A stretch of DNA of 28,072 nt from a virus, in IMG/VR virus record IMGVR_UViG_3300012006_000022, positions 760-28,831 of that record, one strand, 5' to 3'. The position numbers and the translations under genes are program-made. Below the pieces are notes generated by a model. That model worked only from the letters and a program-made list of their open reading frames with translations, searched no databases and was not told the origin of the DNA. Positions 7,075 to 23,943 of this stretch are shown in pieces (the first letter of the stretch is position 1; every line of letters starts with the position of its first letter).

Positions 7075-7497
7075 TTAGCCTCCAAAAAAGTCGGTTACAG
7101 TTTCAGTAAATAAGACCACCACATCAATCGTTGCTCGGTGGATCCCAGTATCCTTTGCAGATTCCAGATCCCACCCCACATCCTCAGAATCTAATCTGGA
7201 CTGATGGATGTAAGTGGTGTTCCAGTTCCCCTGAAACCCATCTACCCTTAGTCTAATTGATTCCACTATCGATTCGCAAACTGTACGGCTTGCAGCGAAA
7301 ATGTCACAGGTGATCCTTGCAGTGCATACCCCTGTTGCCCCACGCAAAGTCAATTGCCGATCTACAGAAGTTTTTTCATACACCAAAAGTGGGAGTATTG
7401 CATTTTGAGGGCTGGCATCTGGATAGATCCTAGTTCCTAGCAGTGCTGTGATGGATCCTTCACCTGTCAGGTATGAATAGAAATCGGATTCAATCAT
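7075..7497 (-). CDS. tail terminator / tail completion protein (DUF3168 family)
   Basis: A 140-aa protein matching the DUF3168 pattern: MIESDFYSYLTGEGSITALLG at the start (family: short helix then LvG.RiYP), RIYPDASPQNAILPLLVY, and a late IHRATIDVVVLFTE strand. These proteins cap the tail tube at the end that joins the head. It overlaps the preceding gp10-like gene as ATGA and precedes the tube gene, as in HK97-like phages. Confidence 0.85.
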   Translation of the reverse strand: MIESDFYSYLTGEGSITALLGTRIYPDASPQNAILPLLVYEKTSVDRQLTLRGATGVCTARITCDIFAASRTVCESIVESIRLRVDGFQGNWNTTYIHQSRLDSEDVGWDLESAKDTGIHRATIDVVVLFTETVTDFFGG

Positions 7498-8976: not shown

Positions 8977-9154
8977 GATCTCTTACCTCAGGTATGACTT
9001 TGGAACTGGCCTTTTCTTTAGCTGCTGGTGTGGCAGGAGTGGCATAACCAATCCTGCACCATTCAGCACCTACATCGTCAGGCACATCTATGATTAGGCC
9101 AGCGTTGGTGTCTTCCCAAGCACTGGCCACACTGATTATCATTTTTATTTTCAT
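8888..9154 (-). CDS. small protein after the capsid gene, unknown function
   Basis: An 88-aa frame whose ATG overlaps the capsid stop as TAATG, which supports coupled translation. The first ~50 residues read like a small folded phage protein (NAGLIIDVPDDVGAEWCRIG, then YATPATPAAKEKA). The last ~40 residues are Ser/Thr/Asp/Gly-rich and lie in the region that overlaps the start of the connector gene, so their sequence is constrained by another frame. It could be a small accessory head protein. No family is assigned. Confidence 0.65.
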   Translation of the reverse strand: MKIKMIISVASAWEDTNAGLIIDVPDDVGAEWCRIGYATPATPAAKEKASSKVIPEVRDHGNQGQNSGSDTTDNRTSDTARGKKPSKS

Positions 9155-10479
9155 TAGCTTGCTGCCATTAATAGGGACCAGATTGGGTTATAGGTGGTCG
9201 TGTTCCCAGTAAGGACACAACCATCAAACCTACTGAACGCTACCCATCCAATTTGAGCAAGTGCTGCATAGGTTTCATTTTGGCGAACCAAAGTTAAACC
9301 ACCAGAACCTACTACAGTTCGGACCGTATAAGCTGACAAGTCACCAAAGATGATAGGCTTGGTTCCAGCAGCAGCAGATGCCATGTTGTTGTTAAGAACA
9401 ACAGGATATCCAAGGATGGTAGGAAGTCGGCCAGAGGCATCAACATAATTGGAAACCAAGATAGGACGGCCAGCCGTATCTAGGATAGATGCAATCTGAT
9501 TCATGGTGGTACTGTTCATCATGAATGCACATTTAGGACTGGCCCTATGTGCTGGATCAACATTACCAATTAAGGTCATGATGTTGGCCACAGTGATTGC
9601 AGTGGTACTAGCAACAGCAGTGGAAGCATTGGCACCCACCACGATCCCAGTAGGCTGGCTTGATCCAGTTCCGGTACTCATGTGAGTTTCAGTAATTCTC
9701 CCCAATCGTGTGCCTGCCACCTTTGCTACAAGGCTTTCAATGTCAATCAAAGAATCTTCAAACAATTCATAGGAAGTCAGAATCTGTTTGGAAGAATACT
9801 TATAGGCGTTCAAGGTCTTGGTTGCAGTGGTGAACGCAGTCTGAGCTGATGCACTGTTTTCTGCTAGCAGTTCACCAGTCACACCAGTTTCATCAAGCAA
9901 TGGGAAATTAAGTGCTGAGCCAGTGCTGGTACTGATAACAGTAGCAACCTGCATAACTGAGTTATAATCTCTCAGGGCTTCTGTGAGGGTGTCATAAAAA
10001 CCAGAGTTAGTGAGTGCGCCACCGATGCCAGCAGAGCCAATGCCCTGGGCAGCTCGGGTAGCTCCAAGATCAAGGGTATTGCTGTTGAGGTCCAAGCCAG
10101 TTTCATTAGCAGCAGTAGCGAATTCATTTCTGAATGCAGGTGTGCCTTTGGTGAACCAACCTCTAAGAGCGTTGGACTGATTAGCTTTGGCTTTGCGGTC
10201 TGAAACATCAGCTACAAAATTGGGTGCTGCAATCGGTGCAGATTTTCTTACACTGCGTTTGACAGCTTCCAGCTTTTCCGAATTATGTTGAATGCCAGCA
10301 GCACCAGCAGCAGCATCTTCTAAGAGCATCAATCTGCTATCGATATCTGCAACAGATGCTGCAAGATTATCAAAGCTGGTCTGCTCTTCTGGGGTCAATG
10401 CTCGAACTGCCATGGCTTCCATGGAGTTGACTTTCTCGATCCGATCAAGCTGCAAAGCTTTGATTTCACTAATACTCAT
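9154..10479 (-). CDS. HK97-family major capsid protein
   Basis: A 441-aa protein with the HK97 architecture. The first ~110 residues are a charged helical delta-like scaffold segment (MSISEIKALQLDRIEKVNSM, ALTPEEQTSFDNLAASVADI), expected to be removed by the prohead protease. The fold follows, with GFYDTLTEALRDYNSVMQVA, ALNFPLLDETG, a segment on SSKQILTSYELFEDSLIDIE (spine helix region), RLGRITETHMSTGTGSSQPT and PIIFGDLSAYTVR before the C-terminal QIGWVAFSRFDG. It has its own promoter and a structured leader that can mask its AAGGA ribosome site (separate entries). The small TAATG-coupled gene follows. Confidence 0.95.
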   Translation of the reverse strand: MSISEIKALQLDRIEKVNSMEAMAVRALTPEEQTSFDNLAASVADIDSRLMLLEDAAAGAAGIQHNSEKLEAVKRSVRKSAPIAAPNFVADVSDRKAKANQSNALRGWFTKGTPAFRNEFATAANETGLDLNSNTLDLGATRAAQGIGSAGIGGALTNSGFYDTLTEALRDYNSVMQVATVISTSTGSALNFPLLDETGVTGELLAENSASAQTAFTTATKTLNAYKYSSKQILTSYELFEDSLIDIESLVAKVAGTRLGRITETHMSTGTGSSQPTGIVVGANASTAVASTTAITVANIMTLIGNVDPAHRASPKCAFMMNSTTMNQIASILDTAGRPILVSNYVDASGRLPTILGYPVVLNNNMASAAAGTKPIIFGDLSAYTVRTVVGSGGLTLVRQNETYAALAQIGWVAFSRFDGCVLTGNTTTYNPIWSLLMAAS

Positions 10480-10581
10480 AGGTATTGTTCCTTGAAAAAG
10501 AGTTCTTCAAGGTGCCCGCTTGTACGCAGTGGCACCTACTGGAATGCTCCAGCGGCCACCTTGCGTAAATACTGCAGGGCT
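10480..10581 (-). promoter_or_regulatory. structured capsid mRNA leader with two exclusive folds
   Basis: Three pairings can be read on the minus strand. Fold A (10567-10523): TACGCA/TGCGTA, GTGGC/GCCAC and CTGGA/TCCAG stack into a 16-bp hairpin with loop GCAT and small internal loops. Fold C (10512-10490): CCTTGAA pairs with TTCAAGG, and the second arm contains the AAGG of the capsid ribosome site (AAGGA, then 9-10 bases, then ATG at 10479). Fold B: AGGTGCC (10537-10531) pairs with GGCACCT (10516-10510). B overlaps A at 10531-10533 and C at 10510-10512, so A+C and B exclude each other. This is the geometry of a translational on/off switch. Function is inferred. Confidence 0.6.
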
Positions 10582-10587
10582 AACCCC

Positions 10588-10615
10588 ATTTTCACATGGG
10601 TTTAAAATGTGTCAA
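10588..10615 (-). promoter_or_regulatory. sigma70-like promoter of the capsid gene
   Basis: A perfect TTGACA (10615-10610) is followed after 16 bases by GAAAAT (10593-10588, four of six to TATAAT) on the minus strand. Transcription would begin near 10581, just before the structured leader of the capsid gene. An imperfect inverted repeat (TAACCCCAT / ATGGGTTTA, 10581-10604) covers the -10 and spacer, so a repressor or activator could bind there. The promoter lies downstream of the terminator at 10770-10800, so the capsid operon can be expressed apart from the packaging genes. Confidence 0.5.
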
Positions 10616-10769: not shown

Positions 10770-10800
10770 AAAAAAAGCCCCTAGGGATTAGCTAGGGGCT
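10770..10800 (-). terminator. rho-independent terminator between packaging and capsid operons
   Basis: A perfect 9-bp stem (AGCCCCTAG / CTAGGGGCT, 10800-10792 and 10784-10776) with a 7-base loop is followed on the minus strand by seven T residues. It stands 17 bases after the small membrane protein gene and upstream of the capsid promoter. Confidence 0.92.
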
Positions 10801-10816: not shown

Positions 10817-11077
10817 TTATCTTAACCAGGAGATATTACTTTTCAGGTAAATATAAACTGGTGACAATATAAGAAAGACAATAAAACCTGCAATGAATAT
10901 TAGAACCACCCGAATACACAATCCAATTAAATGACCTATGTTTTGCGGTGGTGCAGGTTCCTTGTTCTTATTAGCAATCGTTGCATAGATTACATGCAAT
11001 GGGATTGTAATAAACAACCCAAACACGCCACACATTAACGCTAAGAAGTGAAGCACAATAAAAACAGCATGACCCAT
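10817..11077 (-). CDS. small membrane protein, unknown
   Basis: The likely start is ATG at 11077, which has GAGGA seven bases upstream; an ATG at 11110 without a ribosome site would add 11 residues. The 86-aa product has two clear membrane segments, about residues 3-33 (FIVLHFLALMCGVFGLFI) and 52-74 (VVLIFIAGFIVFLIL), linked by a polar loop with KNKEPAPPQN. It lies directly after the HAD frame and before the terminator. Holins may have two membrane segments, but nothing else indicates lysis here. Function unknown. Confidence 0.7.
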   Translation of the reverse strand: MGHAVFIVLHFLALMCGVFGLFITIPLHVIYATIANKNKEPAPPQNIGHLIGLCIRVVLIFIAGFIVFLILSPVYIYLKSNISWLR

Positions 11078-11114
11078 GGTTCCATCCTCATCAAAGAGTA
11101 ATGAAACCATGCTA

Positions 11115-20941: not shown

Positions 20942-21466
20942 CTATTTAATTCTTAAAGAAGTTCCGCGCTGTAGTAATTTGACACCCTCAATTTCAGTTC
21001 CCATTTCCAAAGCTTTCCTAATGCTGGCGTTATCAGCTTCAATCGTGACCTTCTGGAATTGAACTGGTAACTGATCTGCTGGAAGATCCACCTGAAGTGG
21101 TTGAACTCCACCATTATTGGCTATGCTTACCTTGAAGGTTTTGCACTCAAGCTTTTGAATCGATTGAGCTTCAAAGAAAAACTTTAATCTTTCCTTTAAA
21201 CTCTTAACCATGTTTTCATTAGTCAGGGCCAAGTTCCTAATCCTTTTGGCTTCAGTCTGCCTAACTAAAGCCCTGGCCTCTATCTCCCTAATCAGCCAGC
21301 AGTAGTTTTCCACTTTGGATTCAATGGATCCTTCAAGCTCTTTCAACAGGTCATCAATGGTGGTATCAATTTCACCTGTCATTTCCCCTGCATCATCCGT
21401 CTTGGCTTCTGTTTCCATCCAAAACTTCATAATGGCTGTGCTAGCAGATAAATCAAATAAGCTCAT
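20942..21466 (-). CDS. siphovirus Gp157 family protein
   Basis: A 174-aa coiled-coil protein: MSLFDLSASTAIMKFWME, SIESKVENYCWLIREIEARA, a helical segment with KSLKERLKFFFEAQSIQKLE, then KTFKVSIANNGG and FQKVTIEADNASIRKALEMG with the end RGTSLRIK. The order (K.enY...i..le, l.e.mea...kkl.t..f.i.i..n......ik.al..g..i.ga.l....slri) is that of Gp157 proteins, found beside ssDNA-binding and recombination genes; the family was first linked to phage resistance in Streptococcus thermophilus. Start overlaps as TAATG. Confidence 0.92.
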   Translation of the reverse strand: MSLFDLSASTAIMKFWMETEAKTDDAGEMTGEIDTTIDDLLKELEGSIESKVENYCWLIREIEARALVRQTEAKRIRNLALTNENMVKSLKERLKFFFEAQSIQKLECKTFKVSIANNGGVQPLQVDLPADQLPVQFQKVTIEADNASIRKALEMGTEIEGVKLLQRGTSLRIK

Positions 21467-22194
21467 TATTTAGCCCCTCCCATCTTCTTGGCTATTAGCT
21501 TTTCAGCATCGATCCGTTGAGCTTCTACCAATTCATCAACTGAATTAACTTTGTAATGTTTTAGCATCCCCTTCATGGTGCCAGGGAAAGCATGCTCCAC
21601 TGCATTGCAAGCTTCTTGGAATGTTTCCATGGGCTTCTGCTCATCCACTACTACTGCCACTGGTGCTGCCAGAGATGGTAAAGCAATCCTAGTTTGTAGC
21701 TGTAACTGGGGTTCAACTTCAGTTTCATCCAGCCAACCAAGACCGCAGATAGATAAAGTAACCCTGCGCTTAGCCTTAGTCTCAGCACACATAATCTTGT
21801 TAGATCTGGCTTCACCCTGCAAACCCTTCAAACTGACTACCCCACAGGATTCATCATTCCTTCCAGTCATGTCCTCTGCTCGAGCTGTTACTGTGTAGAT
21901 GTCTTCCACCAGTTCCCTGCTTAGGATCTGGATGCTGACTCCATGAAGTTTCCTAAGCTGATCGCTGCAAGCTCGGGTTGCGTATAACTTCAACTTCCCA
22001 CCCAATGGGATAAACTCAAAAGGCTGGGTATGTGGATTCAGGCCAAGACTTTCACAGACCCGCATATAGTAGGCACTGCGTTGATCTTCACTTAGGGTAG
22101 ATAGATCGCCCTGGATAAGGACCGCATCTGTTTTTACTGCCTCTAGCTCAGCAGGTCTCACACTGCTATTTTTTGTCTTCAAAATTGTTGTCAT
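21466..22194 (-). CDS. putative single-strand annealing protein (RecT/Red-beta-like)
   Basis: A 242-aa protein. YYMRVCESLGLNPHTQPFEF and LGGKLKLYATRACSDQLRKL resemble the opening of RecT/Red-beta-type proteins (c...gLNP....f.....gg......y), and MCAETKAKRRVTLSICGLGW with LDETEVE is a conserved block in phage recombination proteins of this type. The C-terminus is helical with a basic end (AEKLIAKKMGGAK). Neighbours (Gp157 and SSB-like) fit a recombination module. A different family of phage recombination or repair protein cannot be excluded without a search. AAGGA precedes the ATG; it overlaps csrA by 29 bases. Confidence 0.6.
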   Translation of the reverse strand: MTTILKTKNSSVRPAELEAVKTDAVLIQGDLSTLSEDQRSAYYMRVCESLGLNPHTQPFEFIPLGGKLKLYATRACSDQLRKLHGVSIQILSRELVEDIYTVTARAEDMTGRNDESCGVVSLKGLQGEARSNKIMCAETKAKRRVTLSICGLGWLDETEVEPQLQLQTRIALPSLAAPVAVVVDEQKPMETFQEACNAVEHAFPGTMKGMLKHYKVNSVDELVEAQRIDAEKLIAKKMGGAK

Positions 22195-22357
22195 CTAACA
22201 TTTCCTTGCGAAAGATTTTAAAGTTCCTTGGCCCATCAAAACCTAATTGATAGGATCCATCCACTGCTCGCTTAAGGGTGACCACCAGAATCTTGTTCGG
22301 GTCGGATTCATCCCAGATTAATACCGATTCATTGAATTTTCTTTCTAGTATCAGCAT
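22166..22357 (-). CDS. csrA: CsrA-like RNA-binding translational regulator
   Basis: A 63-aa protein that follows the CsrA pattern from end to end: MLILERKFNESVLIWD (family MLILtRk.gEs..I.d), strands VVTLKR and YQLGFDGPRN, and FKIFRKEML (family ..v.V.R.Ei). The C-terminal Arg of the RNA-binding edge is present (R50); Thr5 of the usual start is replaced by Glu and two residues are inserted after DESD. CsrA dimers bind GGA in mRNA leaders and block or expose ribosome sites. AAGGAG eight bases before ATG, at the end of the previous gene, drives it. It may regulate phage or host genes. Confidence 0.85.
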   Translation of the reverse strand: MLILERKFNESVLIWDESDPNKILVVTLKRAVDGSYQLGFDGPRNFKIFRKEMLDDNNFEDKK

Positions 22358-22362
22358 CCTTG

Positions 22363-22560
22363 CTACTCCTTGTCTGTGGGTTCATCGTCATGTAAGACCG
22401 CCATGTACTCAGCCAAAACTTCTAGGTGTCGTTTCACCCTCCCTTCAATGTGCTTCTGTTGTCGTTTGGTGTTCTCAGGGTGTAACTGGGAACTGAAATC
22501 CAAGACTTTGGACATCTGATCCAGTAACAGGTTCGCCATTTGTTTGGTCATCCTTGCCAT
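22363..22560 (-). CDS. small early protein, unknown
   Basis: A 65-aa helical protein with GGAGG seven bases before ATG (MARMTKQMANLLLDQMSK...). It is charged, with HIEGRVKRHLEVLAEYMAVL and an acidic end (HDDEPTDKE). It is the first gene after the repeat-rich operator-like region and is followed five bases later by csrA. No family is recognised. Confidence 0.65.
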   Translation of the reverse strand: MARMTKQMANLLLDQMSKVLDFSSQLHPENTKRQQKHIEGRVKRHLEVLAEYMAVLHDDEPTDKE

Positions 22561-22974: not shown

Positions 22975-23883
22975 TTAGTTTTGAATCTCAAGGTTAAGTC
23001 CACCAATAAAATCACCACTGGGGATAGGTGTTCCCGCATAGTGACTAGTCATCCGCTGATCAGTATGACCCAGCAATATTCGTGCAGACTCTAGACCATG
23101 CAATGTCTGCATGTGTCTTGCTCGGCCAGAGCGAATACCTCTGATAGTCCATTCAGGTGGGTGCTTTAGAATTCCATTCTTAATTAATTGTAGTGTACAT
23201 TTTTTCACTACTCGCTGGTAGGTTAGCCTTGTTAAAAATCCCTCAATATTTTTTTTACTTGGAAATAGGAATCCTTTTGAGTCTGGTTCAATCTGCTGAA
23301 CAATCCTAATTGCATCAGCCCCAAGGTATAGCTGGCGATCTTGACCCCTCCATGCGCCCTTATGGTCAGGTAAAGTCCAGATCCATAGGTCAGGCTTAAC
23401 TTTGGAAAAGTTGTTGGAATTGATCTGCACGATCTCGCATGGCCTAGCTGCGGTCAGCCAGTGCAGTTGGATCAGGTTAGAAAGATATGTAGGTAAATGT
23501 GGTAGAAGCTCTGCGATTTGTAACCATGTGACAGATTTAGTCCTGACTGGTGGTCTACCCTGCCTTGGGTTTGGCATCCACATAGACTTGCAAGCTAGGT
23601 AGGTTGCTTGTGAAACCTTGCCCTGCTCCCAGCAAAAACCTACCCACCTAATAATCCGGTGTAGGTATTCCCTGATGGTCTTCCTAGCTAAGCCCTGAGC
23701 GATCATGTGATCTCGGAACTTCCGCAGGTGGGTTACAGCTAATTTCTTGGGATCGGGTAAACTGACACACTCTAGGAACTTAGCCTGGGCGCATCTGTGG
23801 GTGGTTAACTCGGTTGAGTTTTGTAGATAGGTCTGGAGGTAGTCCAGAAAATTACGAAACGAAATGGTTACTAAACTTTTCAT
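22975..23883 (-). CDS. int: tyrosine recombinase (phage integrase)
   Basis: Integrase that joins attP to a host tRNA gene. I choose ATG at 23883 (AGGA nine bases upstream) over a TTG at 23907. In the 302-aa product, residues 1-100 are the SAM-like N-terminal domain, and the catalytic domain has Arg I in AARPCEI (R147), a Lys region at LPDHKGAW, the box RGIRSGRARHM (R251; the usual His of HxxR is Arg here), LGHTDQRMTSHY with H273 and the nucleophile Y282. The tail is short. The gene lies 60 bases from the tRNA-derived core. Confidence 0.92.
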   Translation of the reverse strand: MKSLVTISFRNFLDYLQTYLQNSTELTTHRCAQAKFLECVSLPDPKKLAVTHLRKFRDHMIAQGLARKTIREYLHRIIRWVGFCWEQGKVSQATYLACKSMWMPNPRQGRPPVRTKSVTWLQIAELLPHLPTYLSNLIQLHWLTAARPCEIVQINSNNFSKVKPDLWIWTLPDHKGAWRGQDRQLYLGADAIRIVQQIEPDSKGFLFPSKKNIEGFLTRLTYQRVVKKCTLQLIKNGILKHPPEWTIRGIRSGRARHMQTLHGLESARILLGHTDQRMTSHYAGTPIPSGDFIGGLNLEIQN

Positions 23884-23943
23884 AGGTATCCATCCTAATA
23901 AGGGCAATTAAAAACCTTATCTAGGACAAACCACTTATGCGAG

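Follow-up and report, generated by a model that had tools for sequence, protein, structure and literature searches.

The window analysed here, a stretch of 28,072 nt from the IMG/VR virus record IMGVR_UViG_3300012006_000022, carries on its minus strand the gene for an HK97-type major capsid protein, and the region of interest lies on the same strand between this gene (10479-9154) and an intrinsic terminator-like hairpin (10800-10776; Table 1). The leader is preceded by a sigma-70-like promoter (10615-10588). A TTGACA/TTGACG-like box occurs at a comparable position in most of the relatives described below, and TTTGCCA is found in some members of class II. Promoter matches are no commoner in the region than expected by chance (8 found, 10.9 expected), and the promoter call therefore rests on conserved position. 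In the relatives examined, the closest recognised head gene upstream of the leader is that for the prohead protease. An earlier reading of the window, made from the sequence only, had suggested that an RNA element in the leader could set the timing of capsid synthesis or its ratio to the protease, and the terminator and promoter that intervene support a decoupling of the capsid from the protease. Between the protease and the capsid promoter lies a 97-aa protein (window 10817-11110) without family match, in which long hydrophobic stretches were noted by eye and which is 87% identical to a protein of a class II phage (L206:1872-2165). The window capsid is a mosaic, that is, its N-terminus and leader are nearly identical to those of the L014 type whereas its body is nearer to the L010 type, and the leader plus the first 150 nt of the capsid gene make up an exchange module.

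Table 1. Features of the capsid leader region and of the CsrA-like gene (window positions; SD, Shine-Dalgarno)
Feature	Position	Strand	Description	Family evidence
HK97-type major capsid protein	9154-10479	-	441 aa	Phage_capsid PF05065, E 6.7e-46; phrog_10
SD of capsid gene	10489-10493	-	AAGGA
Hairpin C (segments 4:5)	10490-10512	-	10 bp; buries SD
Segment 4	10510-10516	-	GGCACCU, 3′ strand of pairing B; CCU also begins the anti-SD strand of C
P0, 3′ strand	10514-10519	-	GCGGGC
Hairpin A (segments 2:3)	10523-10567	-	U10567 to A10523; lower stem UACGCA/UGCGUA, middle GUGGC/GCCAC, apical CUGGA-GCAU-UCCAG with strong covariation
Segment 3	10531-10537	-	AGGUGCC, 5′ strand of pairing B
H5 (segments 1:2)	10555-10580	-	alternative 5′ hairpin: lower stem, bulged A10573, GU/AC pairs, NUUH tetraloop
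P0, 5′ strand	10574-10580	-	outer stem, GCCC.GC; also segment 1
Sigma-70-like promoter	10588-10615	-	TTGACA-16-GAAAAT, TG ahead of second hexamer
Intrinsic terminator-like hairpin	10776-10800	-	followed by T run; upstream of capsid promoter
CsrA-family protein	22166-22357	-	63 aa; co-occurs with leader	PF02599, 33.6 bits (cut-off 27)

The sequence-only reading had described two mutually exclusive RNA folds in the leader, with hairpins A and C able to form together and a pairing, B, that overlaps both and would free the ribosome site. All three pairings were confirmed at the positions listed in Table 1, and the outer stem P0 and the alternative 5′ hairpin H5, which were absent from that reading, are added here. 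In hairpin C, CCUUGAAGAA (10512-10503) pairs with UUUUUCAAGG (10499-10490), and the SD lies within the latter strand. The minimum-energy fold of the window leader consists of P0, A and C and has a predicted energy of -40.9 kcal/mol, compared with a mean of -27.0 (SD 2.8) for shuffled leaders (z = -4.9), and none of 200 shuffles matched the native energy. The z score was -4.0 for a class III leader and only -0.7 for the fold of the adjoining stretch 10400-10501. Furthermore, in a comparison of 34 window genes the capsid SD lies under the longest stem, 10 bp (the next are 9 and 7; P = 0.007 against shuffles), and pairing B in the window exceeds what is obtained when segment 4 is shuffled (P = 0.023). 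The SD (UAGGGG) of a second window gene, near 7497, could be buried under a 9-bp stem.

Relatives were collected from IMG/VR by capsid search, and DNA patterns added further leaders. The leader-bearing relatives have capsids 97, 95, 72, 64, 60, 55, 50 and 39% identical to that of the window, and the carriers form a group of uncultured, mostly freshwater phages. In all, 75 distinct leaders were obtained, falling into about four sequence classes: class I, which includes the window and a divergent subgroup Ib (L010, L012, L119); class II (L204-L215, L273, L287, L315, L317); class III (L220-L240, L243 and kin, except L227); and class IV (L227, L242, L319-L327). Every class starts with a near-invariant G-Y-A-G-U-N-U-U-H-A-C-G-C, within which YAGUNUUHACG belongs to H5. 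The core motif was found at 91 distinct places in the fetched DNA, 75 with a leader and 16 without the structure, and 73 of the 75 leaders are followed by a capsid N-terminus; one of the other two (L278) ends at the contig end, and the other (L305) is followed by a capsid start with an early stop. The start in L305 reads ATGACCTAA, and since its class III leader and gene are otherwise normal, either a sequencing error or another start may be involved. Each of 23 larger records has exactly one copy of the core motif per genome, while a reversed control pattern gave no match, and in the relatives the leader is located exclusively ahead of the major capsid gene. Seven chance matches to a mis-spaced DNA pattern in IMG/VR served as controls. 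The element was not seen in the leaders L039-L054, whose capsids are the most distant (28-40% identical). Moreover, the leader had no match at the DNA level among the isolated phages of INPHARED, and no family of Rfam 15 matched it at the gathering score, sub-threshold Rfam matches being at chance level and nearly all outside the structured stretch.

A lack of conservation or covariation in relatives had been named beforehand as what would speak against the idea of two folds. The idea survived this comparison: each class retains A and B with compensating base changes, and C is retained in three of the four classes, and the claim of two exclusive folds, one of which buries the capsid ribosome site, found support. 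The apical stem of A provides the strongest case. It occurs as CUGGA/UCCAG, CCGGA/UCCGG, GCGGA/UCCGC, ACGGA/UCCGU, CCAGA/UCUGG, CCAGG/CCUGG, CAGGG/CCCUG or CAAGG/CCUUG, its five pairs are all formed in 17 of 17 class I and II leaders, with up to three pair types each, and its covariation is significant (P < 0.001) under a phylogenetic null that preserves the tree together with each column's substitution count. In Ib the middle stem of A reads GUUGCC/GGCAAC in place of GUGGC/GCCAC (P = 0.04). For B, in alignments anchored by hand, the core GGUG/CACC is formed in 16-17 of the 17 aligned leaders; a U-A pair becomes G-C between classes I and Ib, and one class III pair is G-C, A-U or G-U. The rival pairing of the anti-SD strand is retained in the relatives, with covariation that is marginal under the phylogenetic null (P = 0.03-0.07), and the complementarity of segments 3 and 4 exceeds that of shuffles in 20 of 20 leaders from the four classes (P from 0.04 to <0.0005). 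Hairpin C is built from different letters in different classes, CCUUGAA/UUCAAGG in I and Ib, CCUAAUA/UAUUAGG in III and GAUCCUU/AAGGAUU in IV, and always lies over the SD. Against shuffles, the P values for C in classes I, III and IV lay mostly between 0.003 and 0.05 and reached 0.07, whereas in class II the hairpin is weak or missing (P = 0.15-0.70), and in L242 too it is unconvincing. In the default fold, the SD is buried in the window and in classes Ib, III and IV but not in class II.

Two properties of the data set limit how this conservation should be read. First, the core stems are invariant inside class III, so that their support comes only from differences between classes; strong covariation within that class was found for an extra hairpin, hp2 (P < 0.001). 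Second, near-identity in class I extends over the leader and the opening 150 nt of the capsid gene, the remainder of which differs, and this near-identity partly reflects recombination. Module exchange between phages inflates apparent conservation, and the argument therefore rests on the differences between classes. A higher conservation of the leader than of the capsid was discarded as proof of selection by itself, the first 150 nt of the gene having an equally high identity.

In the closed fold, the letters of the H5 segment join P0 and A, and H5 competes with the lower stem of A. The lower stem of H5 differs from class to class while remaining paired: CCcUGC/GCAuGG in I, CUGUGU/GCAUAG in Ib, CCAUGC/GCAUUGG in II, GUGC/GCAC in III and UCGCGU/GCGCGA in IV. 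Across the 20 distinct sequences compared, pairing holds in 94% of the cells and two pairs are changed on both sides, and only two to three of 500 shuffles scored as high on three of the five measures. Taken separately, Ib, III and IV are better than shuffles, class I is borderline, and most class II leaders are not significant. Pairing of the GU and AC loop letters with each other occurs in H5 only, which suggests that H5 itself may be the recognised element, with the bulged A10573 and GUNUUUAC as the proposed recognition features. A partner in trans for the H5 loop was sought within the phage and rejected, as GTAAANACT is found at the element's own complement and at one more place, which is chance level. 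One class IV leader (L242) has tandem H5 hairpins at 2351-2420, with loops CUUU and CUUA, and the partner strand of A follows the second only.

The segments, their conservation and compensating changes, their single copy per genome and their exclusive position ahead of the capsid gene are thus established by comparing the leaders. From this comparative evidence, together with the thermodynamic predictions, we consider it rather likely that the capsid leader is a two-state translational switch whose H5-bound state opens the SD. The leader would work as a chain of five segments, in which 1:2 forms H5, 2:3 forms A, 3:4 forms B and 4:5 forms C. In the default, closed state, 2:3 (A, closed by P0) and 4:5 (C) would be formed and the capsid SD would be buried. 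In the open state, H5 (1:2) would be held, the lower stem of A would be unable to close, and 3:4 (B) would form, leaving C incomplete and the SD open. As segments 1 and 2 are transcribed first, H5 could form ahead of A during transcription. A factor acting in trans, for which an RNA-binding protein of the phage or the host is the likeliest candidate, may then bind H5 co-transcriptionally and tip the RNA towards the open state, by which capsid translation would be timed or boosted late in infection; control could also have the opposite sign, with a factor that favours the closed state. The nature of the binder, the sign of control and its timing are what we infer from the arrangement of the segments. 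As one design, spelled differently, recurs ahead of the shell gene throughout the group, the leader is probably a real but undescribed on/off control of shell-protein synthesis.

The sequence-only reading had proposed weighing the folding energies of the state with A and C against those of the state with B. The closed state, with P0 added to A and C, is the predicted ground state in the window, and the closed fold is so in nearly all leaders, whereas reaching the open state with H5 is predicted to cost 0 kcal/mol in L206, 4.4 kcal/mol in L001, 5.8 kcal/mol in the window and as much as 15.5 kcal/mol in class IV. Such costs would require a strong binder or kinetic trapping. In L206, a class II leader with weak or absent C, the open state is the predicted ground state. 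In the best folds predicted with H5 imposed and an open SD enforced, 16 of 16 leaders formed the 3:4 helix; imposing H5 alone had a modest effect on SD opening (0.24 to 0.37 in the window).

The predominance of the closed fold in nearly all leaders, and the presence of strong 5′-proximal structure right after the promoter, would also be expected of a static leader, in which hairpins shield an abundant mRNA against decay at its 5′ end and fix a moderate level of translation, the alternative pairings being by-products. This seems unlikely to us, since a stabiliser would need neither the 3:4 complementarity, which beats shuffles in every class with differing letters, nor the H5 pairs that are retained across classes; moreover, the single-stranded loop letters are near-invariant.

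A mechanism that follows up the CsrA matches pointed out in the sequence-only reading, in which the phage CsrA would bind the apical GGA of hairpin A and the GGA of the SD and repress capsid translation early, fared less well, and we regard it as improbable. The apical GGA is base-paired in the stem and unconserved, being lost or altered in class II (CCAGA-GCAU-UCUGG), and in the window it does not form an A(N)GGA site. The SD GGA is the only site in most leaders. Classes I, III and IV and L204 have an A(N)GGA that coincides with the SD or lies close to it, the other class II leaders do not, and most of class II has no such site. Known CsrA targets have at least three sites (PMC4066749), and the leaders lack the combination of at least three sites and pairs within 60 nt used as target criteria in that study. 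Besides, the most conserved letters of the leader, YAGUNUUHACG, are no CsrA motif. What the capsid leader does share with CsrA/RsmA leaders is an SD, AAGGA, that fits A(N)GGA in classes I and IV and a phage-encoded CsrA-family protein, which in the window retains an RNA-binding arginine equivalent to R44; too few sites and the lack of a conserved loop GGA set it apart. The CsrA-family gene is present in 9 of 22 leader-bearing records (7 of the 7 over 31 kb), plus the window, and in none of 29 unrelated viral records, a co-occurrence that could be due to shared ancestry. CsrA could act on the open SD. The start of the CsrA-like gene itself (window 22166-22400) reads ACAAGGAGUAGCAAGGAUGC. It contains two A(N)GGA sites and a near-consensus CARGGAUG, a start region such as autoregulation by CsrA would predict, and the leader of this gene carries ACAAGGAGUAGCAAGGAUG. 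Near this gene and a Mu Gam-like gene (20942-21466), the window has a region with weak tyrosine-recombinase similarity (22975-23907; Phage_integrase, 23.5 bits, under the cut-off of 27.1).

The operator of phage MS2 combines a bulged A on the 5′ side with two base pairs and a loop of four bases, and the predicted geometry of H5, with its bulged A, two pairs and tetraloop, is the same; in addition, H5 lies solely ahead of the capsid gene and in one copy per genome. By analogy with the operator role, and the bulged A, of the coat-protein operator in MS2/R17 (PMC4751978), the capsid or another head protein might bind H5 or the GUNUUU joint and tune its own synthesis. Such feedback appears doubtful to the same degree as repression by CsrA: the loop is NUUH and not ANYA, the phage is a dsDNA phage whose capsid is of the HK97 type (PF05065), unrelated to the leviviral coat protein, and H5 is placed ~65-80 nt upstream of the SD instead of over it, its bound state being predicted to open the SD and not to close it. 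To our knowledge, HK97-fold capsids are not known as RNA operators. Least probable of all is a transcription-level element at the 5′ end of the late operon, i.e. a nut/put-like antitermination site or an attenuator, for which a conserved 5′-proximal single strand followed by a hairpin, the sequence AGUCUUUA, which we take to resemble boxA in part, and a T run after hairpin A in class III would speak, but classes I, II and IV have no such T run, the C of the boxA-like stretch is any base in classes I and II, and the common 3′ end of three classes is the SD-burying hairpin.

As a two-state translational switch, the leader has one of its closest counterparts in the ermB/ermBL attenuators, where, in a chain of overlapping hairpins, the one formed by default masks the region in which the gene starts and a rival hairpin frees it (PMC11264731). 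These features are shared by the leader; it differs in that the sensor is an upstream hairpin with a near-invariant loop and the controlled gene is that of a phage capsid. No conserved leader peptide or stalling site was seen when leaders of classes I-IV were inspected by eye, and a short AUG...UAA frame in class III, considered as a leader peptide, was rejected because it has no SD and is not kept in L234, L236 and L243. We therefore read the leader as a translational attenuator in which a hairpin with a near-invariant loop replaces the leader peptide as sensor. The attenuator topology is already known from erm leaders; as far as we could find, the literature has no description of it on the capsid gene of a tailed phage, where a near-invariant 5′ hairpin would serve as the sensor. 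Conserved, structured, riboswitch-like RNAs do occur in phage genomes, as with manA and wcaG of cyanophages, but these are associated with metabolic genes, and a capsid motif is unmentioned in the study describing them (PMC2864571).

More broadly, the leaders may represent a new family of RNA switches that sense a protein or a ligand and are devoted to the major capsid gene in HK97-type dsDNA phages, H5 being read by a phage or host factor and strand exchange timing the onset of capsid translation, a proposal that we put forward tentatively, as having slightly less than an even chance of being correct. It would then be an RNA family that neither Rfam nor, as far as we could find, the open literature contains. 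The excess and late timing of capsid production in tailed phages are usually ascribed to promoters and strong ribosome sites, and a dedicated RNA switch retained across capsids that are only 39% identical would add a post-transcriptional layer. The reason for the presence of a CsrA-like gene in these phages could then also be tested readily.

An H5-like sequence was also noticed ahead of an unrelated capsid family (L332, phrog_9953) and dismissed as a coincidence, being kept in only 5 of 80 relatives. The phages with phrog_9953 capsids (L352-L431) have another apparently conserved structured capsid leader, seen at about 830-960 of L354 and also in L360, L375, L392 and L409. It has no Rfam match and consists of GGGUAGC, a stem and GUCC, then GGGCAGGC. 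Capsid leader RNAs may be common.
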